Assembly (NCBI GenBank): GCA_018873225.1
Contig: JAEILZ010000009.1
Coordinates: 1,913,501-1,977,500, forward strand
Length of the DNA stretch: 64,000 nt
Source: [Phialemoniopsis] sp. UDSM-2020
Taxonomy: Eukaryota > Ascomycota > Sordariomycetes > Thyridiales > Thyridiaceae
Direction: 5' to 3'
Shown: positions 35,090-59,114 of the stretch, piece after piece
How the letters are laid out: the number at the start of each line of letters is the position of its first letter
Position numbering within the stretch: the stretch's first letter is position 1
Program-made: the position numbers and the translations under genes
The notes under the pieces: generated by a model
The model's input: only the letters and a program-made list of their open reading frames with translations
What the model was told of the DNA's origin: nothing
Databases searched by the model: none

Positions 35090-35952
35090 TCATAATATAA
35101 CACAGCAGTTGCTCGAGCCGTCGCGGCTCCTCCCCTCGCGGCCGCCGCTCTTGCCCTTGGCCGCCTCGTCCTCCTCCATCATCTCGGCAGGCCGTACCGA
35201 CATGTGGACGACGTTGGGCGACTCGGCGGAAAACTGGTACTCTGAGTCAAAAGATTAGTAAATTTGCTCAAACAGCAGCATGGCTCCACTGCCAGTAGAA
35301 ACCAAAAGAAGAAAAAGAACTCACTCTTGAGCTGCTCCTTGTCGTCGAGCAGTTTGCCAAAGTGTATCAGCCGGATGCTGCTGGGGCTCGCGGGTTTGGC
35401 CTCCCATTCCGTCCTCCACTCCCTGAGGATCAGCTCCTTGAGCTTGTACACCGAGATGCTAAAGGGGTCCTTGCGGCCCTCGTCGTTGGTCTCGGGAATG
35501 TCGACGCTGCGCTTGGTCAGGTACCGCTCGTCGATCTTGTAGGGGTGCCGCGCGCCCGTCGGCAGCAGCAGCGTGATGTTGCAGACGGGGCCGTCCGACG
35601 GCGAGGCGCCGGTGGCGTTGTCGTCTGTCCTGGTTATCGACAGCGAGTCCTTCTTGGGCTCAGCTTCCGCAGCGGCCTCGGCCTCCGTCTTCTCCTCGGC
35701 CGGCGTCTCCTTTTCCTTGCCCTTTAATGACGCTGCCGACGACGGCTCGTCCGCGGCAGCAGACGCAACGCCTGCGGTGTGCTCGTCCTTGGCGGGCGTG
35801 GCGGGCGCGTCGCCGTCCATCTTCTTCATCTCGACGGCGTCATTGGGCTGCTGCAGCGACTCCTGCTTCTGTTCCGGTGCGTCCGACGGCGCGGGCGGCG
35901 CGGTGGCGTCGGCGGCGGCTGCGGGCGACGTGGTCTTCTCCGGTTCCGCCAT
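35090..35952 (-). CDS. Membrane-anchored ubiquitin-fold (UBL3/MUB-type) protein with CAAX box
   Basis: Exons 35952-35325 and 35241-35090 give 259 residues. Residues 1-120 are disordered, Ala/Glu/Lys-rich and acidic. Residues about 122-225 are a ubiquitin fold of the Rad60-SLD2/MUB kind: VCNITLLLPTGARHPYKIDE, KLKELILREW, SIRLIHFGKLLDDKEQLK, VVHMSVRP. The protein ends SSNCCVIL: a CAAX box (CVIL) with an adjacent Cys, so prenylation plus palmitoylation and attachment to the cytosolic face of a membrane are expected. There is no C-terminal GlyGly, so it is not conjugated. Plant MUBs recruit E2 enzymes to the plasma membrane, and animal UBL3 sorts cargo into extracellular vesicles. The long acidic extension is unlike the roughly 115-residue plant and animal proteins. 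The CAAX is only seen after splicing the 83-base intron. Confidence 0.85.
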
Positions 35953-38900: not shown

Positions 38901-39597
38901 CACCGACTCACTAGCTTGTTTGCCTGCAAATTCACTTTTCACCTCACTTTTACTTCACTCTGTGTTGTTGCCCCCAGGCGCACGAACCCCGCGCCCTGAT
39001 CAGCATTCACCTCGTATTTGCATCTGCCTTTCGACGAATCAGTGCCGCTCTGCCAATATTTAACCTACGTCGTCCTCTTGTTGTCCAGATTCTCTCCTCT
39101 TTCCCATCTCAAAACATCATCATCTCCAACCTTGCCTCATCAGCATCTCTCACATCAGCAATCATCTCGCCATACCACAAATTCTCTGGTAAGTCCTACC
39201 TACAAGCATCAGACCCTGACCACATCACCGCTTCATTCATCTATCTGCTTCGTCCGTGGCACCGTCTTTCTGCATTTTCATTTGCCTTGCCTGGTTGTCG
39301 CGTCGTCAGATATAGTCTGTGCTGCGAGCCAACGCGTCGTGACACGTCGTCCAGACTACACGAGGGCAACACGCAACAACACTTCGACCTCGCCCTCGCC
39401 AGCCTGGTCTTTAGTGTCTGCCCTTTATTTTCTCTCCTCACCCCAACTATCCCATCTTGAAATCTCCTTCCTACTTCTCATCACTTGCACCTCACAAGCA
39501 TCCAAATCAACCCTGATCTCACATCACTAACATCGACAAACAACTCAGCTCTACTCTACCACAACCATCAACCATCACCAACTTGCATATCGCAACC
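35953..39597. other. 3.6 kb gene-poor region
   Basis: No gene is supported. The first 450 bases (36160-36400) are purine-rich on the plus strand (CT-rich on minus), fitting the leader/promoter of the ubiquitin-fold gene. The last 500 bases (39080-39597) are C/A/T-rich with repeated CATCA and look like a long leader of the GPI-protein gene; GTAAGT at 39191 could be a 5' UTR intron donor. ORFs between (for example 38100-38555 plus) have no family features. Confidence 0.45.
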
Positions 39598-40417
39598 ATG
39601 ACTATCAAGGTCCTCCTCTTCGCCATCATGGCGCTTCTCTGCGGCCTCGTTGCCGCCGCCGGTGATGCCTTTGGCATCCCCACCCGTATCCCCGAGTACA
39701 AGGGCGAGGAGGCTTCGTAAGTTTTCCCCTCTATATTACCCCATCAAAGTCTTCGCACTAACAAATCTCTCCAGTCCTACCACCGCTACCTTTACTACCA
39801 CCTACACTCAGGTTTCTTTCATCTTCACCGGCGCCCCTGACACTCTAACCGTCTACTCCACTGTCCCCGTCACCGTCACCGAGGTTGAGACCCGCACCTT
39901 CTGGCCCAAGGAGCTCGCCGGCCGCGATGATGGTCATTACACCGACGGCGTCTATGACTGCTCAGTCCCCGCCACCCCGGCCGTCACCGCGCCCGAGGTC
40001 CGCACCCCGAACACCGAGCCGACCACAACCACCTTTGCCGTCCTGCTACCGCCCCAGAGCAGCTTCCACGTCAGCATGCCCCCGATGCTATCCGGCCCGC
40101 CGTTCGACCCCCTCACCGCCTCCACCACCATGGAGACGAGCCGCACCGCGACTACGAACGTCGGTACCACGGACACCGAGACCACCATCCTGAGCACCAT
40201 CGGCTCGGGCACCACCACCGGCGTCGAGTCCACCGCCACCGGCACTGAGTCCACCAGCGTCGGCACCGAGACCGCCACCACCGGTACTGCTACCGGCACT
40301 GGCACCTCCGGCACGCAGACCCCGTCTGCCCCGCCCGCCAGCGGTGCCGGCAAGTCCGATGTTACCAAGCTCGGCATCGTTGGCGCCGGCCTGCTGGCCT
40401 TCTTCATAGCGATCTAG
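39598..40417 (+). CDS. GPI-anchored Ser/Thr-rich cell-wall protein
   Basis: Exons 39598-39716 and 39775-40417 give 253 residues. The N-terminus is a signal peptide (MTIKVLLFAIMALLCGLVAA). A Thr-rich segment (TTATFTTTYTQVSFIF, VPVTVTEVETRTFWP) and a Pro/Thr segment with a single Cys follow. From about 165 there is a long Thr/Gly/Ser/Glu tract of short repeats (TGTESTS, TGTATGTGT). The C-terminus has small residues (SGAGKSD) as probable omega region, then a hydrophobic tail (LGIVGAGLLAFFIAI), the GPI addition pattern. It is expected to be O-glycosylated and linked to the plasma membrane or wall glucan. No enzymatic domain. The start follows a C/A-rich leader and has good context. Confidence 0.85.
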
Positions 40418-40704: not shown

Positions 40705-42345
40705 CTAGTCTGCCTTGTTGTAAGTGATTGTCTTCAGTACCAAATACTCCTTGACACCATATTTTGAGCCTTCGAGACCGTATCCCGACTCCTTGACACC
40801 GCCAAACGGACTGGCAGCATCGGCAACGATAGGGGTGTTCACTCCTACCATCCCTAGTTCCAGCTTTGAGGCTACTCGCTGAATGCATCGAGTATTGTTC
40901 GACCATATGTACCCGGCCAGACCCACATCCACCGAGTTGACCCTTTCCACCAGCTCATCCTCTGTTTCAAAAGGGAAAATGACAGCAACCGGTCCAAACA
41001 GCTCCTCTCGTGCAATTCGCATATCCTGCGTGGCGCCAGTAATGAGCGTCGGCGCGTAAAACGACCCAGGCCCCTTGATCATCCCGCCTCCAACAACATG
41101 CGCCCCCTTTTCCCTAGCCTCGCACACCCACTCGTCGAGCCTAGCCACCGCCTCCTCGTGTATCAGCGGCCCATGCGTCGTACCCTCGTCGAACCCGTTG
41201 CCGACCTTGAACGTCGTCCGCACGGCCTCGCCGAGCCGCCGCACAAACTCGTCGTACACCGCCTCGTGTACAAAGAACCGGTTCGCGCACACGCACGTCT
41301 GCCCGGACCCGCGGAACTTGCACACCACCGCGCCCGCGACGGCGGCGCCGAGGTCCGCGTCCGCGAAGACGACGAAGGGCGCGTTGCCGCCGAGCTCGAG
41401 GGAGAGCCTTTTCAGTGTCGAAGCGGACTGCTGCGCGAGGAGCTTGCCGACGCGCGTCGAGCCTGTGAAGGAGACCTTTTTCACGGCCGGGTGGGTCGTC
41501 AGGACTTTGCCTACTGTGGGTGTGTTGTCGTTGGACGCGGTGACGACGTTGAACACACCCCCGGGGAAGCCGGCGCGCTCGCTGAGTTTGGCTAGGGCGA
41601 GGGCTGTCAGGGGCGTCTCGGCGGCGACTTTGCAGGCTACTGTGCAGCCTGCTGCGAGGGCGGCGGCGGCTTTGCGGGTGACCATCGCCGCGGGGAAGTT
41701 CCATCTGCATTCCCCATTCAGTTCATCAACAAGCATCAAACTACTGAGAAAACTCCCACTTACGGCGTGATCAGCGCACAGACCCCGATGGGCTCCGGGT
41801 ACGTCACGATCTGCTTGGTCCCGCACGACGAAGGGATGGAGTCGCCGTAGACCCGCGGCGCCTCCTCGCTGAACCACTCGATGAGCGAGGCGGCGAACTT
41901 GACCTCGCCCAGCGCCTCGGCAAGCGGCTTACCGTTCTCCCAGGTGATCAGGGCGCCGAGGTCTTCGCTGTTCTCGATGACAAGGTCGTACCACTTGCGC
42001 AGGAGCTTGGAGCGCTGTCGGCCCGAGAGTTGCCTGTACTCGGCTAGAGCTGAGCTCGCGGCCTCGATGGCTGCTGCCGTGTCTAATTCGTCAAAGTCTG
42101 GACATTCGGCGATTTTCTGGCCGGTGGCTGGGTCTGGCATGAGATTAATTCATGTGTCCACGTAGGTACGGGCGACTGCCATTTACCATATACGTCGAAA
42201 AGTCTGCCAGACTGTGCCTTACTCCACGTCCCTGCTATATAGCATACTCCTGACTTGAGCAGGGATGGATCTTGAAGCTACTCGCAAGTTAGGTACATGG
42301 TCACCGGAGCATTGAAAATCATGAGCAACCCACCTGTGGTGCCAT
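40705..42345 (-). CDS. Succinate-semialdehyde dehydrogenase (aldehyde dehydrogenase family)
   Basis: Four exons, 42345-42334 (12 bases, MAPQ), 42277-42187, 42133-41764 and 41704-40705, join in frame to 490 residues. Landmarks: DPATGQKI, TWENGKPLAEA, IGVCALITPWNFPAAM, FTGSTRVGK, LSLELGGNAPF with the general-base Glu, GQTCVCANR with the catalytic Cys and the second Cys typical of SSADH, EELFGPV, and SPFGGVKESGYG. This combination is characteristic of NAD(P)-dependent succinate-semialdehyde dehydrogenase (GabD/Uga2), the last step of GABA breakdown to succinate; glutarate semialdehyde is a possible alternative substrate. The tiny first exon was placed because the frame upstream of exon 2 is closed by TAG while MAPQ-LQDPSLL matches the family's start. 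It is divergent from the FMN oxidase and shares a promoter with four CGG-N2-CCG elements. Confidence 0.88.
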
Positions 42346-42978
42346 TTCCTCCCGACGGTCAGCTTTACAAACTTGCTCAAAGTATCACTTGCTTCACTGC
42401 GAATACTGACTTATCACAGCTCAGGAATATCATCTATATACAGACGATGCCTGTCTCAGCAACCTTTGTCGCATACCTCGGGTCAGTGGGGCCGCTCTCT
42501 CGATGCGGGCCCTCGACGACGTGTAAGTCGGCTCCGAGCACAGCTCGAATCCTTACAATGCATCATTCGCTTGTCATTCCTCAAGCTAGCATATGGGATC
42601 ACTTCAAGATGGTCCGTACTGACACTATTTCCGGTGTAGAACATGTCATGTGGCGTAGAGTGGATTAGGCGGTACCGTTCAGCATCGCTTCGGAGCCGAC
42701 AGACGGTTCCGGACCATGCGCACCAGGAAACGCGGATCCATACCCCGAGTTGAGCATGCCGTATCTATCAACGACCCATATCGGCGGAGTCTAGTCATCG
42801 GGTCCGGAAGAACGTGCTCACCAACGAAGCCGTGACCGAATCCACATACCCGAAACAAGCCTGCGACATCAGGGGACTGCACACAGGCTGCGAAAAAGGA
42901 CTTGAATGTACAAGACTGTATGGGAAGACCATAGATCTAAGTCAGTCGTAGATTTACATTGTACGGACGCTACACGAC
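42346..42978. promoter_or_regulatory. Divergent promoter SSADH / FMN oxidase with CGG-N2-CCG sites
   Basis: Sites seen: CGGCTCCGAG at 42529-42538; CGGAGCCG at 42691-42698 (same motif on the other strand); CGGTTCCG at 42704-42711; CGGGTCCG at 42799-42806. All are CGG-N2-CCG inverted repeats, a shape bound by Zn2Cys6 dimers. A GATA-type site (TTATCA) lies near 42410, the kind bound by the nitrogen regulator AreA/Nit2. The assignment to the cluster regulator at 50003 is inferred. Confidence 0.7.
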
Positions 42979-44222
42979 ATGCCGTCATCGAGCGGCGAAA
43001 CTCAGGCTGAGCCCATCAATGTCGCCGAGATACGGGAGATCGCCAGGTCCAAGTTGAGCTCACCAGTTTGGGCGTACTACACTACCGGCGCAGACGAGGA
43101 GCATACTTTGAAACGAAACAGCTCGATATACGAAAAGTATGTGACCCCTTGGCCTTTGCCCTTTTCTCTCCCGCCAATGCTAAGCTTGACACTAGACTTC
43201 TTATCCGGCCCAGGATCCTGGTCGATGTCAGCAATGTAGACACAAGAACGACGATCTTCGGCAAGCGCTATGATATACCAATTGCCATTGCGCCCAGCGC
43301 CTATCAGAAGCTTGTGGCAACGGGTGGAGAGGTAGACCTTACCCGAGCCAGCCATGTACTTGGGACAAACTTCATCCTCTCGTCCAATGCGACGACATCC
43401 CTCGAGGATGTCATGAAGGCTCTGCCGCAACGAGACCCAGCTTACCCGAGCCCCTGGTTTCAGCTCTACTTTCTGCGTTCCCGTGAAGCTACGGCGAATC
43501 TCATTCGCCGGGCTGAAAAAGCCGGCTACGAGGCACTGGTCCTCACCGTCGACACTGTAGTCCTGGGGAACAGATACCACGAGCGGAGAACACCGTTGAC
43601 ACTCCCAGAGGGCTTGAAGATGGCGAATCAAGACAGCATCAAGGCCGGTGGCATCTCCAAGGGGCGGCTGCTGCTCAACGCCAGGACAGCAGCGGAGGCA
43701 AAGAAAATCATGGACGAGCATGGTGACCTCATCGTTGACGCTAGCCTGACTTGGGACGAAACGATACCATGGCTTCGCTCACAAACCAAGATGAAGATCA
43801 TCCTCAAGGGGATCATGGTAGCAGAAGACGCTGTGAAGGCCGTTGGATCTGGTGTAGACGGCATCATTGTGTCGAATCACGGAGGGCGGCAACTAGACGG
43901 CGTTCCCTCGACCCTTGAAGTTCTGCCAGAGATCGTCGAGGCTGTCAAGGGTAGGATTCCTGTCATGTTTGACGGAGGCATCTCGAGAGGTAGTGATGTC
44001 TTCAAAGCCCTTGCCTTGGGTGCCGATTTGTGCGTCATCGGAAGGTCAGCGCTCTGGGGCCTGGCATACGACGGTCAAAAGGGGGTTGAGATGGTCTTGA
44101 ACATATTGGAGAGGGAGTTGACACGTACGATGGCGTTGGCCGGGGCGAGGTCAGTTCAACATATCTCCAAGGACATGCTTGGGATAGTCAGGGCCGACGG
44201 CTTTGGGATTGCAAAGCTGTGA
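42979..44222 (+). CDS. FMN-dependent alpha-hydroxyacid oxidase/dehydrogenase
   Basis: Exons 42979-43136 and 43196-44222 give 394 residues, a TIM-barrel flavoenzyme of the lactate oxidase / glycolate oxidase / cytochrome-b2 core family. Visible signatures: VWAYYTTGADEEHTL near the N-terminus (substrate Tyr), IAIAPSAYQKL, WFQLYF, a Lys in IILKGI, SNHGGRQLDG with the catalytic His and substrate Arg, and DGGISRGSDVFKALALGA for FMN phosphate. It oxidises an L-2-hydroxyacid to the 2-oxoacid, with oxygen or another acceptor; the exact substrate cannot be read. There is no cytochrome b5 domain. The last residues (AKL) resemble a peroxisomal PTS1, which would fit an H2O2-forming oxidase. It shares the SSADH promoter, so it is probably part of the same pathway. 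Confidence 0.87.
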
Positions 44223-44387
44223 CAATGTGTTTCGCTTGTCAGTCGTAATACGAAGGGCTTTACAACTTGTGCATGAGATCCTGAATGAATGAGTGAAGAA
44301 GTAATCTCTCCAGGGTTATCCCATGGCCTTACACATGGCAGGGTCAGATGTCTTGATATTGTCTATATATATTTATGCTGTTTGGGA

Positions 44388-45203
44388 CTACGCAAAGCCG
44401 TGCTTCTTGTTGTATTCGTCTGCCACCTCTCGCGTGATCTTGACGATCTCCACACAGCCAGGAGAGTCGCTGTGGCAACATATCGAGGTCTTATTGCCGT
44501 TGATTGGCAGATCAACGACCTCTCCCGTCTCGGCAATGACCTTGTCTTCGTGAAACTGCGACCTGACGCGCTCCCTTACAACCTTGGGATCCCACGGCGT
44601 CTTCTTCCTGTCGATAAAGAGCATGCCCTCCTTGGTGTACTTGACGTCGGCAAAGTACTCCGCCCAGAACTCCAGACCGGCCTCACGCGCCGCAATCTCC
44701 ATGTTTGTGCCCGCGAGACCAAAGACCGGCACTCCACGGGGAACACCGGCCCAGACGGCGCGGGCCACGTCGAGGTTGCGGATCATCATGCCGTACAGAA
44801 TGCCGTGGGGTTTAACATGATTCATCTTCATACCGTGCAGGTCGAGGAAGCCCTGCAAAGCGCTGATTTGATAGACCATATTTGCTGTGTGCTCCTCGAG
44901 CGACAGGGTGATCTCCCTACGCCCGAACCCCTGCACATCTGGCAGACCGGGGTGCGCGCCAACCTTGATGTTCGCTTTTTTGCAGAGCTCCACCGTCTTG
45001 GCCATGATCAAGGGGTCGCCAGCACTGGGAGGAGTCAGTGTTTTGTTCCTTCACGCGGTGATCTTGAAGACTTACTGGAAACCGCAGGCCACATTCGCAA
45101 AGTCGATGAGCGGAATCAACTCCTCGTCCGGACCGCAAACATAGTTGCCGTAGCCCTCGCCGAGGTCCACGTTGATGTACGCCTTTTGCCTTGGGGGAGC
45201 CAT
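44388..45203 (-). CDS. LamB/YcsF family protein (PxpA-like lactamase subunit)
   Basis: Exons 45203-45076 and 45024-44388 give 254 residues. Family landmarks: [24 protein letters not shown] (spanning the intron), [27 protein letters not shown] and a C-terminal CCHSDSPG. LamB/YcsF is PxpA of the bacterial ATP-dependent 5-oxoprolinase PxpABC, where it acts with KipI (PxpB) and KipA (PxpC) to open a lactam ring. Here the divergent partner carries KipA and KipI domains fused to biotin carboxylase and BCCP, so the complete bacterial gene set is present in two genes. It is probably cytosolic. The start is the ATG directly before the conserved first strand. Lactam opening is inferred from family and context. 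Confidence 0.9.
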
Positions 45204-45657
45204 TTTTGGGATGTTACGGTCTTTTCGATGCCTGTTTGAGATCCTGGAATCTGATAGTACTGTGATGAAGAAGCGGTTTTAGTCGTAATCTCGATCTAAG
45301 GAAGGATAACAACATGCAGTGGCCTCGGAGCCGACATCTCGAGCTAGTGAGCAGCTGAACCCCTAGTGTTGATGCCAACCCCATACTTTGCCAAACTGGG
45401 GGTTATCTTGAACAGGGGAGAAAGAGGGGAAGAGGGGCCCGCTAGAGACGGCTCCGAGATAGCGTCAGGTGTGTGTCTTGTCGGAGCCGTTGATCGGCGT
45501 TTGCTCAGGGGACTTGCATACGGCAATTCGCTTGACGTACGTCAGTCATTGGGGGAAGGGGGGTCAAGAAATATATCCCCATGAGGGGATGTGATTATCC
45601 CACTATCTGCATGTCGTGAGACGCGTCGAAGCAAGTCGCGACATCACTTGTCTCAAG
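45204..45657. promoter_or_regulatory. Divergent promoter PxpA-like / BC-KipA-KipI-BCCP with CGG-N2-CCG sites
   Basis: Sites seen: CTCGGAGCCG at 45324-45333 (reverse of CGGCTCCGAG), CGGCTCCGAG at 45449-45458, and CGGAGCCG at 45482-45489. GATA-type sites TTATCT (near 45403) and CTATCT (near 45603) are also present. Three copies in 454 bases are far more than chance. The most likely binder is the Zn2Cys6 protein encoded at 50003 (inference). Confidence 0.7.
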
Positions 45658-48600
45658 ATGAAGAACCTCCATACAGTCCTCATTTCGAATCGCGGAGAGA
45701 TTGCATGCCGGCTGATAAAAGCTGCAAGGTCAGTAGCTGATAAGGTGCAGGTGAGATGTCAAGCATTATGCCGAGCTAACACGCGATGCGGAGAACAGTA
45801 AGCTGGGGATCCGCACCATTGCCATCTACACGCCTCTCGACAGCAATTCACTACATGTGCTTGCGGCGAGCGAGGCCGTCGAGTTGAAAGGTGAAGCCAA
45901 GTCTGCGTACTTGGATGGGTGAGTGGCCAGCCCGACTTATTGCAGACCTCGACTGACACGGACCTCGCCAGCGACCAGATTATCGACATCGCAAAGCGGG
46001 GTGGCGCCCAGGCCATCATCCCGGGCTATGGCTTCCTCTCCGAAAACTCGGCCTTTGCCCGGGCCGTAGCAGAAGCAGGGCTGGTCTTTGTAGGGCCTTC
46101 TCCCGAAGCCATCGACTCGTTTGGTCTCAAGCACACGGCCAGGACGCTCGCGGTACAAGCTGGAGTACCGGTCGTCCCGGGCTCGCAGGAGTTGCTCGAT
46201 AACGAGGACGATGCTGCCAGCACTGCCGCGTCCCTCGGCTACCCGGTCATGCTCAAGGCAACGGCCGGCGGTGGCGGCATGGGCCTGCTCATCTGCGCCG
46301 ATGAGGCAGAGGTCCGCAGCAACTTTAGAACGGTGCAATCGCGCGGCGCCTCGCTCTTCAAACACGCCGGAGTCTTCTTGGAACGTTACTATCCCAACAG
46401 CCATCATATCGAAGTCCAGGTCTTTGGCAATGGGCTGGGAAAGGCCATTAGCGTCGGCGAGCGCGAGTGCTCGATCCAGCGGAGACACCAGAAAGTCATC
46501 GAGGAGTGCCCTAGCCCATTCGTCGTAGCGTATCCCAAACTTCGCGAAGACCTGACGAGCTGTGCGGTGCGCCTTTCGGAAAGCATCAACTACTCCTCGG
46601 CGGGTACAATTGAGTACCTGGTCGACGATAAGACTGGCGACTTCTTCTTCCTCGAGATGAACACGCGTCTGCAGGTTGAGCACGGCATCACCGAACTCTG
46701 CTACGACGTGGACCTCGTGGAGTTGATGTATCTGCAAGCAGACCAGCAACTCGGCGGGTCAGGAGGTATATCTGCACATGAGCTTTCCACACTACAAGCA
46801 CGCTGCATGGAGCCAAAGGGGTATGCAATTGAAGCTCGAGTGTACGCCGAGAATCCGGCAAAGGACTACGCACCGAGTCCTGGAGTGCTGCAAGAAGTCT
46901 CCTGGTACGAGAGCAAAGGCACACGAGTAGATACATGGGTACGCGCTGGCATGACTATCAGTCCAGACTACGATCCCCTCTTGGCCAAGGTCATGCACCA
47001 CGCGCCTACGAGAGAGGCGGCCATTGCCGGTCTGGAGGAAACGCTGTCGAAGAGTACCATCTGTGGGCCTCCAGTGAACATAGAGTTCCTCATTGCGATC
47101 CTGCAGGACCAGACCTTCCGGCAGGGAAACACGATCACCAAGTTCCTCAACACCTTTGCGTTTACTGCCACCGCTATCGACATAATCTCAGGGGGCTCGT
47201 ACACTCTCGTACAGGATTATCCAGGACGCCCGAGTGTTGGCCATGGATTCGGTCACTCTGGTCCCATGGATCCTATTGCACTCCAAGTTGCCAATCTGCT
47301 GGTTGGCAACGATGTCGGAGTCGAAGGCCTTGAGATCACACTGGACGGGCCAGATATGAGGTTCTTGGGCGACGCCATTGTAGCACTGTGCGGGCCCCCG
47401 GTCCCAACACATCTTGACGGCGCTGAAGTTTCGCAATGGACGCGCTTGCACGTCAAGGCTGGGCAGCGTCTCACCATCGGAAAGCTGCCTGCGCACTGCC
47501 GAGTGTACCTCGCAATATACGGAGGCTTTACCAATGTGGCTACGTGGTTCAACAGCAAGTCCACGAACCCTCTAGCTAGCATCGGCGGATACCAAGGACG
47601 ACCCTTGCGCGCGGGAGATTTTCTGCGGATCGTCGACGCCGACGAGTTGCCACCCTTCCAAGAGGCGTCGATCCCGACCCACCTCCTGCCGGCGTACACT
47701 GAAGACTGGGTCATCCGAACCATGAGCGGCCCCTATGAGACGGGGTACTTGACACCGGAGTTCATCGACACCTTTTACAACACATCCTGGGAAGTCAGTC
47801 ACAACGCGGCAAGAGGCGGCATTCGGCTCCTGGGCCCCCGTCCAGAATTCGCAAGGGCGAACGGAGGGGAAGGCGGCGCTCACCCGAGCAATGTTGTTGA
47901 GTACGGCTATCCCATTGGCGGCCTCAACTTCACCGGGGATCAGCCGGTCATTCTCCCCATGGACTGCCCTGATCTTGGAGGCTTCATATGCAACCTTACC
48001 GTCATCAAGGCAGACATGTGGAAGCTTGGTCAGCTTCGATCGGGCGACCGGGTCCGGTTCCAACGCGTGGATATTGACACAGCTGTCGAGCTGAGCCGCA
48101 AGAACCAGGCCTTTATACAACACCTGTCTACCTCCATCAAGTCGGGTTCCTGGAAAGATGCACTGCCATTTTATAACGCGTCAGTTCCAGAGTTCACCTC
48201 CAGCGAGCCAGTCGATGTGCTCAGGGTCATCGATTCCCGCCCAGGTAGGCCCAAGGTCACCTACCGAGGGGGAGCAGACACCTATGTCCTCGTCGAGTAC
48301 GGCACGGGCGACTTTGATCTCAACCTGACCTGCCGAGCGTCCCTGCTACAGGCAGCGCTTGAAAAGTCGCAAGATTCCGCCATCGTCAACATGGTCAGCT
48401 GCGCCAGTTCTTTGGCCATCTTTTACGACTCTCTTCAACTCTCAAGGCACGACCTACTAGCTAGGCTAGTCGAGATGGAGGAGGTTCTGAGTGGAACAGA
48501 GGAGTTCAAGATTCCCGTCCGGCGATTTAGACTGCCCGTCACTTTCACCCATCCTAGACTGACCGAGTGTGTCGAGAGGTACATGGCCACGCAGCGATCG

Positions 48601-49531
48601 ATCGCGGCCTACCTCCCCGATCCCGTCAAATTTGTGGCAGACAACAACGGCATGACGCCCGACGAGCTCAAGCAGACCATTCTCAAGTCGGAGTCGATCG
48701 TCTTTGCTGTTGGCTTTGTCATGGCCCTGCCAGTACTCATCCCAGCAGATCCTCGCCTGAGAATAGAGTCTCCGAAGATGAATCCGAGTCGCACATTCAC
48801 GCCTGAAGGCTGTCTCGCTACAGGAGGAAGCTCGTTCTCCATCTACGCGATCGATGGACCAGGAGGATACATGCCCATCGCCATGACCCTGCCTTGTCTT
48901 GACCTGCACGGATTCAAACGCGGGTTCAGCAAGACCCAACCTTGGCTGTACCGGCTACTCGACATGATCACGTTTTACGAAGTTTCCGAGGAGGAGTATG
49001 AAGCCAAGATGAAAGAATTTAGGCGTGGCGTATATGAATTTGAGGTCGAAGACACCACGTTTGATCTTGCGGCACACAACAAGCTCCTGCATGAGGCTGC
49101 GGATGACATACGTCAACTGAAGGAGTACCGTACACCGCACCGTGAAAAGGTGGCTGCTCAGGAGGCAGAGCTCCTCGAGAAGTGGCACGAGAGCAAGCAG
49201 ACGGCAGGCGTCTCAAAGAGTGATACCGAAGCATTGCTACAAGGTATGAAAGAACTCCTGTGAGACTTACACCCACGACGCTAACCTGCGTGAATCAGAC
49301 CCAAACATGGAAATTGTAGAAGCGCCGGTCAACGCCAATGTTTGGAAGGTTTTGGTCAAGGACGGTGACATTGTAGAAGCTGGACAGACCCTTATCATCC
49401 TTGAGGCCATGAAGATGGAGATCAATGTCAATGCCGACTCACGACTTGCTGGCAACAAGATTGAGCGAGTCTGGACAGTTCCTAGTGATAGTGTTCATAG
49501 CGGCCAGCCCTTGATAGCTATCAGAGCGTAA
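45658..49531 (+). CDS. Biotin carboxylase-KipA-KipI-BCCP fusion (urea-carboxylase-like, no amidase)
   Basis: Exons 45658-45728, 45799-45918, 45972-49243 and 49299-49531 join in frame to 1231 residues. Domain order: biotin carboxylase (about 1-450; SNRGEIACRL, GYGFLSEN, KATAGGGGMGLL, ERECSIQRRHQK, EMNTRLQVEH), AHS2/KipA (about 460-770; VQDYPGR, GHSGPMDPIAL, GGYQGRPLRAGD), AHS1/KipI (about 800-1110; CTHP-like block FTHPRLTECVERYMA, ATGGSSFSIYAI), and a C-terminal biotin carrier domain with EAMKMEI, biotin on Lys about 1193. This is the urea carboxylase layout of yeast Dur1,2 but without the N-terminal allophanate hydrolase. Beside a PxpA homologue and with SSADH and an aminotransferase co-regulated, a carboxylating, ATP-dependent lactam hydrolase is more likely than urea use. 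That is inference; urea or guanidine carboxylation is the alternative. Confidence 0.9.
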
Positions 49532-50002
49532 TTCAGTGAATACACTCGTTTGAGAAGTTATTGATGAGAACCCCCATTTCGAAAGTCTTTGGAATGAGCA
49601 AAGAACCGCAAGACTTAATGATCAAGTGTGATAACGTATGAATGGACTCTTGTGTTTGAAGAGCAACAGTCGATTTACCGATCAAAGACTGCCGAGCCCC
49701 TTATCTGGAAACGCCGAATATCGCCGTTAGTGGCCAAGATGCGTAAGATACCCCGCTGGCCGATCTGAGCTGGGCGCAGACTAGTGGACTCAGGTGATTT
49801 GATATGCTGTTTTAGGTGCCTATCTGGTAACATTGGGGACGCCTAGACGCTTGTGGACCTGTCGAGTGGGTTTATATGACTTGCTTCCCCTCTTCAACCT
49901 CTTGGCTTGCTACGTAACCTCCACCCTCACCCCGACTTGCTGTCAGCTTGGGTGTTTGTTGTGACAACTTCATCACCAGCTGTCCAAATAAGCACAAGCA
50001 CA
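49532..50002. promoter_or_regulatory. Promoter of the Zn2Cys6 regulator
   Basis: This 471-base region holds the 3' flank of the fusion gene and the promoter of the regulator. GATA-type sites TTATCT (near 49700) and TATCT (near 49822) are present. No CGG-N2-CCG element is seen here, so the regulator does not appear to control itself through that motif. Confidence 0.5.
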
Positions 50003-52266
50003 ATGGAGAGACGTCGGCAACAACGCAAGGCGTGCGTCGTCTGTCGAAACAGAAAGGTCCGTTGCGATATCATGCAGTCGCAGAGCGGTACCTGTTCAGT
50101 ATGTGCTAGAGGTGGATTCACATGCGTGTAAGCTGAGGTACATTGTCAAGGGGAGACACATCGTCAAACTGACACCAAACTCTAAGGAGCCAGAAAGAAT
50201 GGGCGCCTGCAAGACGCGGGCGGCAGCAGTCCAGGAAGGATTCCCAGCGGGCATCAGATGTGCCATCGTCGGCCCAAGGAACCTCGGTCTCCGGACCCAG
50301 CCCGGCTTCAGTCTCGAATCCCGGACTAGAGCATGATGTCGACGGCGATGACACAACGGAAGGGACCGGCCCTCAGTATCTCGTCAAAGATCTAGCATCT
50401 GATGGCTCTGAGGAGCTTGCACGCACTGCACTGACGCGCTTCTTCAACGACCATGTAGACTCGGACTGGTACAACATTTTCGAAACCAGTGATCACTTTC
50501 GAATAGCGTACATTGGGACCCATACATCGAATCTCGCTCATTTACTCGGACTGCGCCACTTTCACCGCACGCTGGGATATCACCAGTCTCAATCGCCTCT
50601 TGCCCCACGCTTCCAGGGCGGACTGCAGAACGGGGCCGGCATTGATCTATGGGTGCCCTCTGGCTTCGAGGGCCCTGCTCAGACCTCGCCAGATAGCAGT
50701 GGTCCTGGAGTGCACCCTTCCCTCGAACGAAGTGCTATGTATCCTCAAGCCAATGCTTTCCTAGGAGACGCCCATATGGGACAACCCGACACAGCATACC
50801 AACCGCCCATCCACTACCCCTTTCCTCCGATCCGGCCTCTGAAACCGTGGAAACCGAGTTCGTCCGCGAGCTCACACTCAACCCAAGATCCTGCTCAGGA
50901 CCTCTGCATGTTTCCGGCCCACGAAGTTCGAAAAGCCCTGGTTATGGCCTATTTCAAGCACATTCATCCGTTATACCCCATCATGCCGATCTCCGTATTT
51001 CTCAGGCCGGATGGTGAGCTGCAAGAGAAGCCACCCCTCATGCTGTTTCAGGCCGTACTCCTGGCTGGTGCCCACGTCTGCATGCATCCCCTAGTTGCCA
51101 AGGACAGGTTGTTCGTCAAGAGCGTCCTGTTCAGACGGGCCAGCATGCTATTTCACCTGCGGCATGAAACGGCACGGCTGCAGATGGCTCAGGCGGCAGT
51201 GCTGTTCACTTGGCACATCAGCGACGGTGATACCGTTGCGAGTGGCCCCTGGTACTGGAACGGCATCGCCATGCGGATCGCTTGTGGTCTGGGTCTTCAC
51301 CGGGCAGACAAACACCTTCCTGTCCTTGACCGGATTGTCAACAAGCGCCTGTGGTGGTCCATCTTTATCGCCGAGGCTTTTTCGGCCCTCGAGACCGGGA
51401 GACCATGCTCGATTCAGCTCCAAGACTTTGACCAGGACATGCTCCGAGAGGACGACTTTGTCGATGAGCAGGACATATGTGTTTTTGACAGCGGGGAGAC
51501 AGTTCCTAGCCGGGACATGCTCGTTCGACATCACGTGTACATGGCCGAGCTCGCCATCATCATCTTGGACGTCCTCGAAGCCAACTCCCCTGCTTCCAAG
51601 CGGAAACCAGACATCACCAGCCTCAACAGCCGACTCGCAGTCTGGGCGTTGCGGTCCAACTGCTCTTCTGGCGCCCAGTCCGACGACTTTTACACGAATC
51701 ACCTCCGTATACACTACAATCTCGTCATAATGCATCTGAACCGCAGCATCGGGGGCCGGCCGATGACCGTGGGTAGAGATGTGTGCAGCATGGCATCCGA
51801 AACCATCCTGTCATCGCTCGACCGGATTGTCAAGATGGGCGAGATTCGGCGCTGCCACTTTAGCGTTCTCGGTGCCGTCACCGCCGCCGGGATCCAGCTG
51901 GTGCAGGACTTGAGGGGCGCCGTATTATCACAATCCTTTTTGAGTGCTCTGAACCTCTCGGAGCGCCTGACGCAGCTCATCACGCACGGCGACTCGCTGG
52001 CCGAGTACTGGCCCAATGCTGCGGCTGTAACCGCGGTTTTCAGGCAGCTCCAGCATGAGTACGAACAGCACATTTCGGCGGGCCTGAACCAGGCGCAGCC
52101 TTCGGACATCACCATCGAGTCGCCGGACTGGAATAGCCTGTTCACGTCGATCCATGTGCCGGCGTATGCGTCGCTCGCGGACCACGAGTGGCTGGGCACG
52201 GCGAACCTGACGGAGCTGTCGCAAGACTTGAGCGGGACTGTGAACAGTGCTGGACCGAGTGTGTGA
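50003..52266 (+). CDS. Zn2Cys6 fungal transcription factor (cluster regulator)
   Basis: Exons 50003-50127 and 50187-52266 give 734 residues. The binuclear cluster is exact: Cys at 11, 14, 21, 31, 34 and 41 (C-x2-C-x6-C-x9-C-x2-C-x6-C), opening MERRRQQRKACVVC. A basic linker follows (PARRGRQQSRK), then the fungal-specific transcription factor domain from about residue 260 (HPLYPIMPISVFLRP, AQAAVLFTWH, CGLGLHRAD, RLWWSIF, GRPCSIQLQDFDQ). It lies inside the catabolic cluster, between the fusion gene and the aminotransferase. I propose it binds the CGG-N2-CCG elements in the three divergent promoters, activating the pathway when the substrate is present. Start is the ATG five codons before the conserved basic residues; the intron just after the sixth Cys is typical of this class. 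Confidence 0.9.
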
Positions 52267-52402
52267 GGACTTACGAGTCTTGAGCAACTACAGTTTCGAC
52301 ATTCAGTTTATTCAAAAATATCGATAGTGGCAGACAGGTCTGCAGACAAGTATATATTCAGGCTACAGACTATGGCTCCATCTCCCGAGAGTCGGCCCGC
52401 AA

Positions 52403-53960
52403 TCACAAGCCTGAAGGGATCTCAGCCGTAGGCAGCTCCTCGAGTGCCTCAGCGATGATCGCTATGCCCTTTCGCAAGTCCGCCTCGGAGATGACCAAAG
52501 GAGGCGCGAACCGGATGGTGACGCCGTGGGTATGTTTGGTCTAGGAGTGTGTAAGCTTCTTTATATACCATGAAAAACGACGACAGCTTACCAAAAGACC
52601 TTTGCGGCCCATCAAGAGGCACAGATCCTTTGCCGTCCTGCCTTGCGCGGCAGCTTCATCAATGACGACCGCGTTTAGAAGCCCCTTTCCTCGGATGGTC
52701 TTGATGATCGGCGAATTGATCGCAGCCAGACCTTCGCGGAAGGTGTTGCCGAGCTTCTCGGCCTTGCGGACCAGGTCCTCCTCTTCCATGATCTCGAGAG
52801 CACGGATCGACACAGCGCAGCCAAGGGGACTGCCGCCGTAGGTTGAGCCGTGCGTACCGTGCTCCATGACTGACATAATCTCTGCACTTGTGAGCACGCA
52901 GCTCATGGGGTAGAGACCGCCCGACAGGGCCTTGCCCAGCGTCACAAGGTCGGGCTTCACGTTTGACCATTCAGAGCAGAGCATCCGGCCTGTGCGGCCC
53001 ATGCCGGCTTGGATCTCGTCGCAGATGAAGAGCACATTGTGTTTCTTGCACAAAGCGTGTACTTGGGCAAGATAGTCGTCGTCTGGCACTACGATGCCGG
53101 CCTCGCCCTGAATGGGCTCGCAGATGAAAGCGGCCGTCTTGGGTCCGTAATTCTCGAGGACCTCTTCCAGGTCCGCGATGTTGCTGTAACGGATAGGCTT
53201 GCCGGTGTCGGGGTTGTACGAAGTGATGTGAGGCAGAAGAGGTCCGTAGTTGTCTCTCGAGTTCGGATCTGTGGAGAGAGTGATGGGTATCGTCTGATAT
53301 GGCCCGTCAGTATCTACTTCGACACCATAGACACATTTACCGAGGGATACATACGGTGCGTCCATGGAAATTTCCTTGGGCGCCAAACACCCAGGCCTCA
53401 TTCTGAGAGACCCCTTTCGTCTTGTACGCCCACTTGCGACTTATTTTCACGGCGGTCTCGACAGCCTCGGCACCGGTGCACATGGGCAGCACCCTCTCAT
53501 AGCCAAAGACATCGGTAACCTTCTCCGCCCATTTGGGCAAGACATCGCTGTAGAACGCCCGAGAGCAGATGGTGAGCCGGGAAGCCTGCTCGGCCAGGAC
53601 CTTGACGAGGGCCGGATGGCAGTGCCCCTGGTTCACCACGCTGTATGCTGATAGGAAGTCGAGATACTGACGACCCTCCGGATCCCAGACATGGGCCCCC
53701 TCAGCACGAGAAAAGACGGTGGGAAGGGGTGCATAGATATCGGCTATGCGTTCTTTTTCAAGCTGGATTGCTGCAGCAGAGGATGGGGCATAGAATCTCG
53801 ACTTGGATGCAATAGAATACGCCCGGGTCTCTTCGGCGTGTGGAGCCATGGCTGTGCGCGGTGGGTAAGAGAACGTCTCCGAGGCCGGACGTGATGAGGT
53901 CAGGGCCAGGCGTCTTGCTGCGCGGTAATACGATACGATATGGACCCTTTGGTATCTCAT
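52403..53960 (-). CDS. Ornithine-type omega-aminotransferase
   Basis: Exons 53960-53355, 53293-52592 and 52540-52403 give 481 residues, a class III PLP aminotransferase. Landmarks: [85 protein letters not shown] with the PLP Lys, [26 protein letters not shown] and IRFAPPLV. The sequence is closest to ornithine aminotransferase (Car2/OAT), which makes glutamate semialdehyde; related enzymes use GABA or 5-aminovalerate. Residues 1-44 before MAPHAEE are Arg-rich without acids until Glu35, like a mitochondrial presequence, unusual since fungal Car2 is cytosolic. The alternative start is the ATG at 53849. It is divergent from the amino-acid permease across a promoter with four cluster elements, so a pathway-dedicated paralogue is likely. 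Confidence 0.87.
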
Positions 53961-54620
53961 CGAGATAGGGAACTTGAGCAAAGGGCTTGAGGGGACGCAG
54001 TTATATCAGTGGAATAGACTATTGCAGACAAGTCCGATAAGTGGATGAAGATATGATCAGCAATGCTACTTGTGACTAACTACGAGTTGCGACACAGACT
54101 GCAGGCCAGCAAGATCTATCTCATAGCCATCTGTGCCGAATAGAGTCATGGCCGTGTTGTTTCATTGTCGGCTCCGAGAGGAATCCTTGGCGTTGTCAAT
54201 CACCCATTCGAAGCTAGGGGTATCCTAGTCCGTGGCCCGGCTCCGAGATCAAGCAACTGGCGGTTCCGAGTGGCGATAGGCGCCAAATGACCTGGTTCCA
54301 CACCCTGATCCCGGTCCTTAACCTCTTGGATCCGCTCGTATCGGTGATCCAGCTTAGCCGGAGGCTTGATAGCTAGGTGAACGGCTCCGAGATACCAACA
54401 TGGCAGGCTACGACCCCGTGGGGAAGCAGAGGCAATGTGGACCATCAACGCTTATCTCCCAATACACCTTGTGCAGATGACGGCAGTGCCTGCACTCCTC
54501 GCACCCCTTTTGATATGCCGATATAAAGCTTCCTCCGACGGCCCTTTCATGCCGCTACGTGCTGTGTAACCGCAGCAATTTCCTCAGTATCATCATCCTA
54601 CCATATCTTCAGCTTCCAAG
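53961..54620. promoter_or_regulatory. Divergent promoter aminotransferase / permease with CGG-N2-CCG sites
   Basis: Sites seen: CGGCTCCGAG at 54169-54178, 54238-54247 and 54382-54391, and the variant CGGTTCCGAG at 54261-54270. GATA-type sites occur near 54036 (CGATAA), 54273 (CGATAG) and 54451 (TTATCT). The three exact cores lie in the same orientation. Confidence 0.7.
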
Positions 54621-56156
54621 ATGGCGATCGCTCAAGATACGCCGGCGCAAGACACGCCGTCGCAGCACTCCGGAGAGAAGCTGGCTTACACCAACGAAGG
54701 CAGCGTCTTGGCGGAGCGACCCACTCACGAAGGCATTGCTGAGGTGTTCAAGGAGGGCGAAGATGTCAACTTTCGCACGGTCGGTTGGATCTGGGCGACC
54801 ATGATCTTCCTCAAGAGTAAGTCTCTTGCTGCAAACGAGCTGGAACTAGGCTGACTCTTGTTCGCGTCTCAGTCATGTTCGCCACCGGTGTCCTGTCTAT
54901 CCCTGTTGCGCTGGCAGCTCTCGGTGCCTTTCCTGGCGCCGTCAATGTGATTGGGTGGTGCTTCGTCAACACATACGCCGCGGTGTTGATGGGAGACTTC
55001 CGGAACCGCCACTCTGGCTGTCACTCTGTGGCCGACATGGCCCAGATTGTTGGTGGTAAGATCCTGCGTGAGATCATTGGCGGCCTGTTCATCATCACCT
55101 GGGTGATGGTCGCTGGCTCTGGCATGGTTGGAGCAGCTACGGCTCTGAACGCTGTGTCCACTCATGCGCTTTGCACGAATTGGTTTCTTCTCATCGTCAC
55201 CGCTGTCATTATCGTGCTGGCCAGCATCCGCACTTTTGAGAACCTTGGCTGGCTGACTTGGGCCGGATTCTTTGCTACCTTTGTGGCCGTCTTCATCGTC
55301 GTGTATGTCCACCCCCTTTTCTATCATCTAAGATGGACCCCTGACTGACCCCTTCTTCAGTGTCGGTGTTACGCAGCTCGACCGGCCTGCTGCAGCTCCC
55401 CAGGAAGGCCCCTACGAGCTTGGATACGTCGTCATTGCGTCGCCGACCTTCATCGAGGGCATCAATGCAGTGACCGCCATCTTCGTGTCCAGTGCCGGTT
55501 CGACAGCCTTCCTCCCTGTCATCTCCGAGATGCGCGACCCCAGGCAGTACAAGAAGTCGCTCTTTGTCTGCATGGCCATCATCACCGCCTCATACCTCAC
55601 CTTCTCGATGGTAGTCTACCGCTGGTGCGGCATCTGGGTCGCATCGCCCTCGCTCAGCTCTGCGGGACCTCTGCTCAAGAAGGTGGCATACGGTATTGGC
55701 TTCGTCGGTCTGCTCGTCACCGGTGCGCTTTACGTACATATCGCAGCCAAGTACCTCTTTGTCCGCATCCTGCGCAACTCACAGCACCTCCAGAGCAACA
55801 CGTGGGTCCACTGGTCCGTCTGGTTCAGTTGCACCATCGGGCTTGGCGGAATTGCTCTGGCCATCGCCGGCGGTGTCCCCATCTTCAACTACCTCCTTTC
55901 TCTTGCAGCATCGATCGGCTTTGCGCCTCTCACGGTGATACTCCCTTCATACCTGTATATTTACGACTACAGCGAGTACCGCAAAGGCACGGCTCTTCAG
56001 CAGGCCAAGTACTGGTTTCACTGGTTCCTCTTTGTGCTCGGTGCCTTCTTGTCTATTGGGGGTCTATATGCTGTCGTCTCTGCTATTCGCGAAGCTTACG
56101 CCATGGGCACAATTGGCTCAGCGTTTAGCTGTGCTGACAACAGTGGATCTGTTTAG
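54621..56156 (+). CDS. Amino-acid permease, AAAP (AVT/Mtr-type) family
   Basis: Exons 54621-54816, 54873-55302 and 55361-56156 give 473 residues. After a 55-residue hydrophilic N-terminus there are about eleven membrane segments. The opening FRTVGWIWATMIFLKIMFATGVLSIP (split by intron 1) and FLPVISEMRDPRQYKKSL are typical of the fungal neutral/aromatic amino-acid permease branch (Neurospora mtr). It probably works as a proton symporter at the plasma membrane. The shared promoter with an aminotransferase suggests that it imports the pathway substrate or an amino acid derived from it (GABA, ornithine, a lactam); the substrate is not readable. All three exons join in phase. Confidence 0.88.
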
Positions 56157-56790
56157 GGCGAGAGTTGTGCATTTATTGGAACTTTATCCCGGTACTGTGT
56201 CAGTATGTGCTAGGACAAACATGTATCTTGCCACAAATGTTGTCTGTTTAGATAATTGCTAGTCTCAATGGATGAGAATATTGATCAGGGCGCCAATGTG
56301 ACTAGACTGAGTACACTCGATATAAATCACATTTTGACCCATAAAAGCACTCACCTTGAAGGAAGAGGCACGTGTTGATTCTTTAAAACATATCTAAGCT
56401 GGCAGGTCTCGGCACTTGGAAAACTTCCGATGCGTTGCAGCCGCCTTGCCGATATACTACCGCAACAGGTTCCCGGCTGAATGTAATCTTTGCCTCGCTC
56501 TTGGCACTTGTATTGCAACCCCAAAGCACATATCAGCGTGGGGATATTGCGGGGAATCCTGGTTGACGATGATCAGCCTATTGTACGTATGTGTGCTCCC
56601 CTGCCTCCGTCCAAACCGGGACGAATACCAGGAGGGAAGTGAGCATAGGAGCTCCGGTCTTGCGAGCGGTCCGGTAATAAGAGACTGACTTTCCCAACAT
56701 CTAAAAAATGATGTCTTTAAATGATGCCACCCAAATGGTTTAGCTATCGAGGCTCACATTAGCCCAGTCGTCGCTGATTGATCGTCGACA
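56157..56790. promoter_or_regulatory. Beta-xylosidase promoter with XlnR- and CreA-type motifs
   Basis: GGCTGA at 56475-56480, TCAGCC near 56573 and TTAGCC at 56759-56764 match the XlnR/Xyr1 consensus GGCTRA on either strand. GTGGGG and GCGGGG near 56537-56552 match the CreA site SYGGRG. All are short motifs, so chance matches are possible. No CGG-N2-CCG element is present, so this gene is outside the neighbouring regulon. Confidence 0.4.
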
Positions 56791-59114
56791 ATGCTGTTCC
56801 ACGCCATATGTCTCGCCGTGGCTGGGTTCTCACGCCCATCACGGGCCGGCGTGACGTATCCAGACTGCACAAATGGTCCTCTCAAGTCGAATCTTGTCTG
56901 CAACACCAGCGCAGCCCCCGAGGCGAGGGCGTCTGCCCTGGTAGCGGCAATGGCGAACAACGAGAAGCTTTCCAACCTGGTCAAGTGTGTCGTTCCTAGC
57001 CAGCGGTGTCACGTCCACTCCAGACTAACATCGACAGCAACTCACCCGGCGTCTCAAAGCTGGGCCTAGCCGCGTACCAGTGGTGGAACGAGGCCCTCCA
57101 CGGCGTCGCGCACAACAGGGGCATCACCTGGGGCGGCGCCTTCAACGCGGCGACGCAGTTCCCGCAGGCCATCACCTCGGGCGCCGCGTTCGACGACGAC
57201 CTCGTCGAGCAGATCGGCGCCGCCATCGGCACCGAGGCGCGCGCTTTCGCCAACGCCGGGCGCGCCCACCTCGACTTTTGGACGCCCGACGTCAACCCCT
57301 TCCGGGACCCGCGGTGGGGCCGGGGCCACGAGACCCCCGGCGAGGACCCGTTCCGCAACGCACGCTTCGCCGAGGCGTTTGTGCGCGGCATGCAGGGCAA
57401 CGCGTCGACGTACCGCGTCATCGCCACGGCGAAGCATTACCTCGCGTACGACTTTGAGGGCAGTGGGGGGACGACGCGGTTCAACTTTGACGCCAAGGTT
57501 ACGATGCAGGACGCCGTCGAGTACTACCTGCCGCCGTTCCGGTCTGCGGCGAGAGACGCCAAGGTCGGCAGCATTATGTGCTCGTACAACGCCGTGAACG
57601 GGGTGCCGGCGTGCGCGAACAAATATTTCATGGATGATATTCTGCGAAAGCACTGGGGGTGGACGGACCAGAATCAGTATGTGGTTAGTGACTGCGATGC
57701 CGTTTACTACCTAGGAAACGCCAATGGGGGCCACCGTTATAAGTCCAGCTACGCTGCTGCGATCGGAGCATCGATAGAAGCGGGCATGGACAACATCTGC
57801 ACTGCTGGGGCACAGGCTCCGGATCCGGCCTCAGCGTTCAACCAGAAGCAGTTCAGCCAGGCTGCGCTGGACAAGGCTATGGTGCGACAGTATCAGGGGC
57901 TAGTCAAGGCTGGGTACTTTGACGGGCCTAATGGCATGTATCGCAATCTCGGTGCGTCGGACGTCAACACAGCGAGTGCGCAGAAGCTGGCGCTCCGAGC
58001 CGCCGAGTCAGGGATCGTGCTGCTCAAGAACGACGGCTTGCTGCCGCTGTCACTCAGCGGCACCAAGCCCAATGTAGCCATGATCGGTTTCTGGGCGAAC
58101 AAGGCAGACTCGATGCTCGGTGGCTACAGCGGTTCGCCGCCGTTCAACCATGACCCAGTGACCGCGGCCAAGCAGATGGGTATCAATGTAAACTACGTTA
58201 CTGGGCCGTTGAATCAGGGAAGTGCCGACACTTCGGCGGCAGTTCGTGCTGCGCAGAGTGCGGACTACATCATCTACTTTGGCGGCATTGACAATACTGT
58301 CGAGAAGGAGAGTCAGGACCGGTCCTCCATCGCGTGGCCGGGCGGTCAGTTGTCCATGATACAGAAGCTGGCGGCGCTAGACAAGCCAGTCATCGTAGTC
58401 AAGCTCGGCACGCATCTGGACGACACACCCTTGCTGAGCTTACCCAATGTCAAGAGCATCTTATGGGCTGGGTATCCGGGGCAGGACGGCGGAACGGCTG
58501 TCATGAACATCTTCTCGGGTACCACAGCGCCAGCCGGGAGGTTGCCCATTACGATGTACCCGTCCAGCTACACAAACCAGGCGCCATTTACCAACATGGC
58601 CTTGCGACCATCAGGCTCTTATCCGGGCCGGACGTACAGGTGGTTTGACATGGCCGTGTTCCCATTCGGACACGGGTTGCACTACACCAACTTCACCGCT
58701 GCCTTCGACACGTTCCCCGAGACATTCTCTATTCAAGATTTGGTTGGGTCGTGCAAGGAGACATACCTCGACTTGTGTCCCTTCCAGTCCGTACCCGTCA
58801 AGATCAGCAACACGGGAACACGCGCATCCGACTACGTCGCACTGGGCTTTCTGTCCGGGAGTTACGGGCCAACGCCGTATCCGATCAAGACACTAGCTGC
58901 ATACAAACGCTTCTCCAATGTTGCTGCAGGTCAGACCAGTGCTGCATCGTTAACATGGAACTTGGGAAATCTCGCGCGCGTTGATGCCAACGGAAACACC
59001 GTGTTGTATCCTGGAAAGTACACAATCACGATTGACCAGCCAGCTATTGCCAACTTGACTTTCACATTGACAGGAACAGAGGCCGTGTTGGACAAGTGGC
59101 CTCAACCGAGTTGA
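56791..59114 (+). CDS. GH3 beta-xylosidase, secreted
   Basis: Exons 56791-56984 and 57038-59114 give 756 residues. Domain order is that of fungal GH3 exo-1,4-beta-xylosidases (XlnD/Bxl1): N-terminal (alpha/beta)8 barrel with YQWWNEALHGVA, TPDVNPFRDPRWGRG, ETPGEDP and the nucleophile loop YVVSDCDAV (Asp about 283), then the alpha/beta sandwich (GIVLLKNDGLLPL; DNTVEKESQDR, the acid/base area), and a C-terminal fibronectin-III-like domain. It releases xylose from xylo-oligosaccharides outside the cell. The N-terminus has only a short hydrophobic stretch (LFHAICLAVAGF) followed by SRPSRA, a weak but usable signal peptide. The size is slightly below the usual 780-800. No close link with the catabolic cluster upstream is apparent. 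Confidence 0.92.

Follow-up and report, generated by a model that had tools for sequence, protein, structure and literature searches.

A seven-gene cluster with a LamA-adjoining AmdR-like regulator and a shared CGG-N2-CCG-type promoter element in Phialemoniopsis sp. UDSM-2020

To our knowledge, the use of lactams and omega-amino acids in fungi is known mainly from Aspergillus nidulans. In this species, the AmdR/IntA regulator controls amdS, gatA, gabA, lamA and lamB, as reported in an excerpt of PMC8016842, and conservation of AmdR among filamentous ascomycetes is described as particularly poor in an excerpt of PMC3998117. In the present work, we analyzed a stretch of 64,000 nucleotides (the window; C11:1913501-1977500) from the genome of Phialemoniopsis sp. 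UDSM-2020 (44.18 Mb; 44,176,824 bp in 11 contigs), the introns and protein relatives of which indicate a filamentous ascomycete. Between positions 40705 and 56156, seven predicted genes are arranged as three head-to-head metabolic pairs and one Zn2Cys6 regulator, and the three divergent promoters are dense in a short element built on CGG-N2-CCG (CGGNNCCG), one exact form of which is the 10-mer CGGCTCCGAG.

Like the AmdR/IntA regulon of A. nidulans, which serves omega-amino acid and lactam catabolism (PMC8016842, excerpt), this cluster associates an AmdR-like Zn2Cys6 regulator, lam-type genes and an aminotransferase. It differs from it in several respects: the regulator adjoins LamA, the aminotransferase belongs to the ornithine type, the gene set extends to a hydroxyacid oxidase and an AAAP permease, and no amidase domain was found by Pfam in any of the seven proteins. 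Moreover, CCAAT is not enriched in the three promoters (2 copies for about 3 expected), whereas activation by AmdR requires the CCAAT complex AnCF, according to a title cited in PMC3998117. The bacterial 5-oxoprolinase PxpABC is a second point of comparison, since the cluster LamB passes a PxpA subfamily model. The cluster LamA bears carboxyltransferase domains which are held by PxpB and PxpC in bacteria, but it is a single protein which also carries biotin carboxylase and biotinyl domains. Finally, Sef1 of Lachancea kluyveri and Candida albicans is also a zinc-cluster regulator with a motif containing CGGnnCCG; in the excerpt of PMC8557406, however, this motif is the longer CGGnnCCGnnnnCGG and the Sef1 targets are tricarboxylic acid cycle or iron-uptake genes. 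No lam cluster accompanied by a linked regulator was seen among the open-licence papers listed, and the matches listed there for the motif letters are all unrelated by their titles.

Our preferred interpretation of the cluster is that of a self-contained system related to the AmdR-lam regulon of A. nidulans, its regulator standing beside lamA. We propose, with a probability of about two in three, that the linked AmdR-like regulator binds a fuller form of the element, CGG(C/T)TCCGA(G), and co-activates all six metabolic genes when an inducer, predicted to be a lactam or an amino acid, is present.

The exact 10-mer CGGCTCCGAG was found seven times in the window (positions 22977, 42529, 45324 on the minus strand, 45449, 54169, 54238 and 54382), and six of these copies lie inside the three divergent promoters, which together measure 1,747 bp, as had been claimed in the original prediction made from the letters of this DNA. 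In 100 dinucleotide shuffles of the window, the same word appeared 0.29 times on average and twice at most. The expectation of 0.12 copies per 64 kb given at that time was too low, the genome rate leading to 0.33, a value still far below the seven observed. The broader CGGNNCCG occurs 49 times in the window for 22.5 expected: 12 copies are in the three promoters (5+3+4) and 37 in the remaining 62,253 bp, which corresponds to a ~12-fold excess (the rest-of-window rate predicts 1.04 in 1,747 bp; Poisson P ~1e-9). The three and four copies first counted in the second and third promoters (P2 and P3) were found again, whereas the first one (P1) holds five instead of four. The limits of P1 (42346-42978) follow from the aldehyde dehydrogenase model, whose small first exon sets the start at 42345.

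When all words of the window were counted, CGGCTCCGA, with eight of its nine copies in the promoters, and CGGCTCCGAG were, at their respective lengths, the top words present in all three promoters with at least 4 copies summed, and CGGCTCCGAG was the only 10-mer besides CAA repeats with at least 6 copies inside 12 kb. The form CGGYTCCGA has 9 of its 11 window copies in the promoters. Without any count threshold, the words of at least 10 bases common to the three promoters are nothing but overlapping versions of the motif, up to 12 bases long, and the longest exact match of each promoter pair is the motif itself (12-14 bases). The copying of promoters as blocks is ruled out, no exact match above 14 bases being present between any two of them. 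Because outside the motif no comparable exact match joins two promoters, the sites should have been kept or gained apart.

The 12 promoter sites were aligned in one orientation. At the first spacer position, 8 of them have C and 3 have T, and at the second 11 have T, while on the 3' side A follows directly in 9 and then G in 7. Since both the spacer and the 3' flank are constrained, we prefer to write the code CGG(C/T)TCCGA(G), an inverted CGG pair with a constrained spacer and flank, and CGG-N2-CCG as originally given is not supported as the full code. No CGGNNCCG is present at 55001-57215 or at 35941-40261, in agreement with the motif-free borders announced for the cluster; two copies, at 40261 and 40342, are within the open frame to its left. 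The seventh CGGCTCCGAG, at 22977, is located ~50 nt upstream of the minus-strand ATG of a reading frame and fits the background.

In the whole genome, 231 copies of CGGCTCCGAG (116+115) were counted against 211 (97+114) for the reversed control, and a genome-wide enrichment was consequently rejected. The copies were listed by their next base (67+52+112=231) and positions were taken in for 219 of the 231; the spacing analysis covers these 219 places and one known further copy. Adjacent pairs within 3 kb are four from the cluster and C1:934257/935276, the latter being the one other pair within 1.1 kb, and a comparable density was found nowhere else among the 219 of 231 places listed. On this evidence, the motif is not equally common elsewhere; an equal frequency in unrelated promoters would have spoken against the original prediction. 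With the genome rate, six copies in the 1,747 bp of promoter have a Poisson tail of 8e-16. Two copies, at C11:1832379 and C4:58618, lie inside class-III aminotransferase matches, both at offset 257, where they would encode Gly-Ser-Glu; part of the genome count is therefore coding.

The regulator possesses a canonical N-terminal Zn2Cys6 cluster, CVVCRNRKVRCDIMQSQSGTCSVCARGGFTC (CX2CX6CX5-12CX2CX6-8C), followed by a Fungal_trans domain, and it belongs to the fungal Zn2Cys6 proteins according to Pfam (PF00172, 26.1 bits for a cut-off of 21; PF04082, 74 bits for a cut-off of 23). Zn2Cys6 proteins recognise CGG triplets, and a link between this regulator and the motif is likely. Homology searches gave at least 102 regulator matches, at least 613 LamA matches, of which the best 120 were used, and 120 listed oxidase homologues. 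Several of the 102 regulator homologues listed are named acetamidase regulatory protein and others cutinase transcription factor 1, names that we take as automatic annotation. The best named match of good coverage, P0003, shows 44% identity, apart from the 73% found in the fused protein P0223 described below.

The order of the genes in other fungi brings new support for the tie between regulator and cluster. In Fusarium flagelliforme, a single gene model of 1,913 amino acids (P0223) is made of LamA (80% identity) followed by the regulator (73%), and in Aspergillus nanangensis another one (P0026) is made of an SSADH-type (succinate-semialdehyde dehydrogenase) enzyme followed by the regulator. 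These fusions resemble annotation errors from which the order of the genes can be read. In addition, 21 of the 102 regulator matches are on contigs of identical size to those of one of the best 120 of 613 LamA matches. Four of the shared contigs are below 60 kb and two of these below 7 kb, the large ones indicating a same contig and not adjacency; in Cosmosporella, the gene numbers of regulator and LamA are neighbouring. In a tree of 105 sequences, the window regulator, all 21 linked matches and P0223 are grouped in a clade of 87, whereas the three nearest regulator paralogues of the genome (on C4, C10 and C11; 29-33% identity over the best stretch) and P0095 are outside. P0095 is the sole AMDR-named protein in this tree, but its scores with the window regulator and with two paralogues are nearly equal (240, 239 and 231 bits, respectively).

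Four further LamB/YcsF loci are present in the genome, at C6:956080, C4:940821, C5:1830920 and C6:4270528. Clear LamA paralogues are near two of them, and the stretch examined around a third one contains an aldehyde dehydrogenase 56% identical to that of the cluster and, at its margin, a LamA-like start. Judged from reading frames only, some of these loci seem near amidase-like or transporter genes. As a control, 10 kb surrounding each of these four loci and each of the three nearest regulator paralogues (L038-L044; 70 kb in total) were examined and no CGGYTCCGA was detected there; since ~2 copies are expected in 70 kb at the window background, this control excludes dense sites only. The paralogous lam loci were consequently not retained as extra targets. 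The genome also codes for a second ornithine-type aminotransferase (61-69% identity), without any CGGNNCCG in the 1.5 kb made of its 5' end and upstream region.

Several observations weigh against the proposed control by the linked regulator. The region upstream of its own gene (49532-50002) holds no CGGNNCCG, and CGGNNCCG is present at the paralogous loci (0-5 per 10-kb stretch). For the Zn2Cys6 family, 2 nt is a short distance between inverted CGG triplets. The published CGGnnCCG-bearing site that was found is the longer Sef1 site already mentioned (excerpt of PMC8557406). At C1:933289-935286 (L045), three CGGCTCCGA are gathered in 2 kb, a relaxed copy at C1:933289 joining the exact 10-mers at C1:934257 and C1:935276; one of these copies is outside and two are inside open frames of at least 150 amino acids. 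This possible further target is the one rival place seen, showing that copies of the relaxed motif can also accumulate outside the cluster. The LamA-associated clade has a support of 0.88 in a midpoint-rooted tree built with matches to one query, among those listed. The dehydrogenase part of P0026 is no closer to the cluster enzyme (55%) than to its C5 paralogue (57%), and the oxidase shares a contig size with only 1 of the 102 regulator matches and 1 of the 120 listed LamA matches.

Could the element be read in trans, by one of the AmdR-like paralogues or another Zn2Cys6 protein, the linked regulator acting on other sites? In A. nidulans, AmdR is presumably unlinked to the lam genes. Its control over them in that species (PMC8016842, excerpt), the existence of the paralogues, the promoter of the linked regulator devoid of sites and the three relaxed copies at the C1 place are all compatible with such a situation. 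A regulator acting in trans should however leave dense sites elsewhere, and besides C1 none is seen among the 219 of 231 places listed. As the other LamB loci also lack CGGYTCCGA and the LamA-associated clade excludes those paralogues, we consider this explanation unlikely.

A still less probable situation is that the element does serve the three pairs, but that the six proteins under one regulator span two or more functions and not one pathway. In other fungi, linkage of the oxidase with LamA or the regulator is rare, and the place of this enzyme in lactam breakdown is not evident, whereas the same exact 10-mer is found in all three promoters, where sites were kept or gained apart with no non-motif match of like length. 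As for the idea that the counts arose by chance or from the composition of a GC-rich region, the 10-mer was indeed chosen post hoc from about half a million possible ones. But the Poisson tail given above, once corrected for every possible 10-mer and every 15 kb stretch in the genome, still amounts to ~1e-6, and the shuffles preserved the dinucleotide content; at the level of counts, chance is already refuted and keeps a very small probability.

The gene models behind the cluster (Table 1) were obtained by splicing introns by eye from the sequence and by assigning domains with Pfam. They bear out the catabolic cluster of three head-to-head pairs with a Zn2Cys6 gene inside. The pairs associate, respectively, an aldehyde dehydrogenase (-) with a flavin mononucleotide (FMN)-dependent hydroxyacid oxidase (+), LamB/YcsF (-) with LamA (+), and the aminotransferase (-) with the permease (+); the regulator (+) is placed directly after LamA on the same strand.

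Table 1. Predicted genes and intergenic regions of the cluster, in window positions.
Feature	Position	Strand	Basis
SSADH-type aldehyde dehydrogenase, 490 aa, 4 exons	40705..42345	-	spliced model; PF00171; best NCBIfam TIGR01780
Divergent promoter P1, CGGN2CCG at 42529, 42670, 42691, 42704, 42799	42346..42978		motif counts
FMN-dependent 2-hydroxyacid oxidase, 388 aa, C-terminal AKL	42979..44222	+	PF01070
LamB/YcsF, 5-oxoprolinase subunit PxpA type, 254 aa	44388..45203	-	PF03746; NF003814
Divergent promoter P2, CGGN2CCG at 45326, 45449, 45482	45204..45657		motif counts
LamA, biotin carboxylase + CT_A_B + CT_C_D + biotinyl domain, 1231 aa	45658..49531	+	Pfam; relative of 3va7, 5i8i
Stretch upstream of regulator, without CGGN2CCG	49532..50002		motif counts
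AmdR-like Zn2Cys6 + Fungal_trans regulator, 734 aa	50003..52266	+	PF00172, PF04082
Ornithine--oxo-acid aminotransferase type, 481 aa	52403..53960	-	TIGR01885
Divergent promoter P3, CGGN2CCG at 54169, 54238, 54261, 54382	53961..54620		motif counts
AAAP-family amino-acid permease, 473 aa	54621..56156	+	PF01490

The best NCBIfam model of the aldehyde dehydrogenase is that of SSADH (TIGR01780), but the score of 618.2 bits is under the cut-off of 646.35 and the enzyme is therefore called SSADH-type only. LamB (PF03746, 267.4 bits) reaches 234.5 bits with the PxpA model NF003814 (cut-off 226), which places it in this subfamily, while it is under the cut-offs of the other four PxpA models listed. LamA shows a full-length likeness to 3va7 (carboxylase KLLA0E08119p) and to the carboxylase part of the urea amidolyase 5i8i, and no amidase domain was found in it by Pfam. 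The aminotransferase is assigned to the ornithine aminotransferase equivalog TIGR01885 (628.7 bits for a cut-off of 378.4), and in its alignment with the ornithine aminotransferase structure 1gbn the ornithine-binding residues are conserved. The oxidase ends with AKL and is for this reason predicted to be peroxisomal; among the 120 listed homologues, AKL is found in 81 and an end resembling the type 1 peroxisomal targeting signal in 109. It is 80% identical to a F. flagelliforme protein called Oxidase FUB9, a value which, compared with the 44% of the regulator, indicates that conservation across the cluster is uneven.

These predicted enzyme types would fit a lactam or omega-amino acid catabolism. 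The permease may take up the substrate, and LamA/LamB would open a lactam ring (5-oxoproline, or a gamma or delta lactam) in an ATP- and biotin-dependent manner. The resulting omega-amino acid, or ornithine, could be transaminated by the cluster aminotransferase, and the semialdehyde be oxidised by the SSADH-type enzyme, while the peroxisomal oxidase might serve an L-2-hydroxy acid branch. The linked regulator would bind the promoters of the six genes and activate rather than repress them. Its own promoter being without the element, no autoregulation of this switch is predicted. Sites of the HGATAR type number 12 in the three promoters for ~4 expected at the window rate, suggesting general nitrogen control by a GATA regulator as a further layer; CreA-type sites are not enriched in the three promoters. 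In P2 and P3, HGATAR-type sites are at about fourfold the window rate.

Altogether, the observation of a dense promoter motif is confirmed with small corrections and the interpretation given to it is partly supported: that the letters alone define a regulon is not sustained, the promoter of the regulator itself being without a site. As a tentative generalisation, which we hold as possible but somewhat doubtful, an undescribed AmdR-like clade may travel with LamA across filamentous ascomycetes and run self-contained lactam/omega-amino acid regulons via a near-palindromic CGG-N2-CCG, replacing or predating the A. nidulans arrangement, where an unlinked AmdR controls the lam genes. The cluster offers an uncharacterised Zn2Cys6 clade a likely binding site, and it also provides a candidate pathway combining LamA/LamB, an ornithine-type aminotransferase and a peroxisomal-type oxidase, the substrate of which could be found by growth tests. 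With its lamA-linked regulator and its sequence-defined candidate site, it would allow a direct test of the rewiring of a nitrogen regulon.

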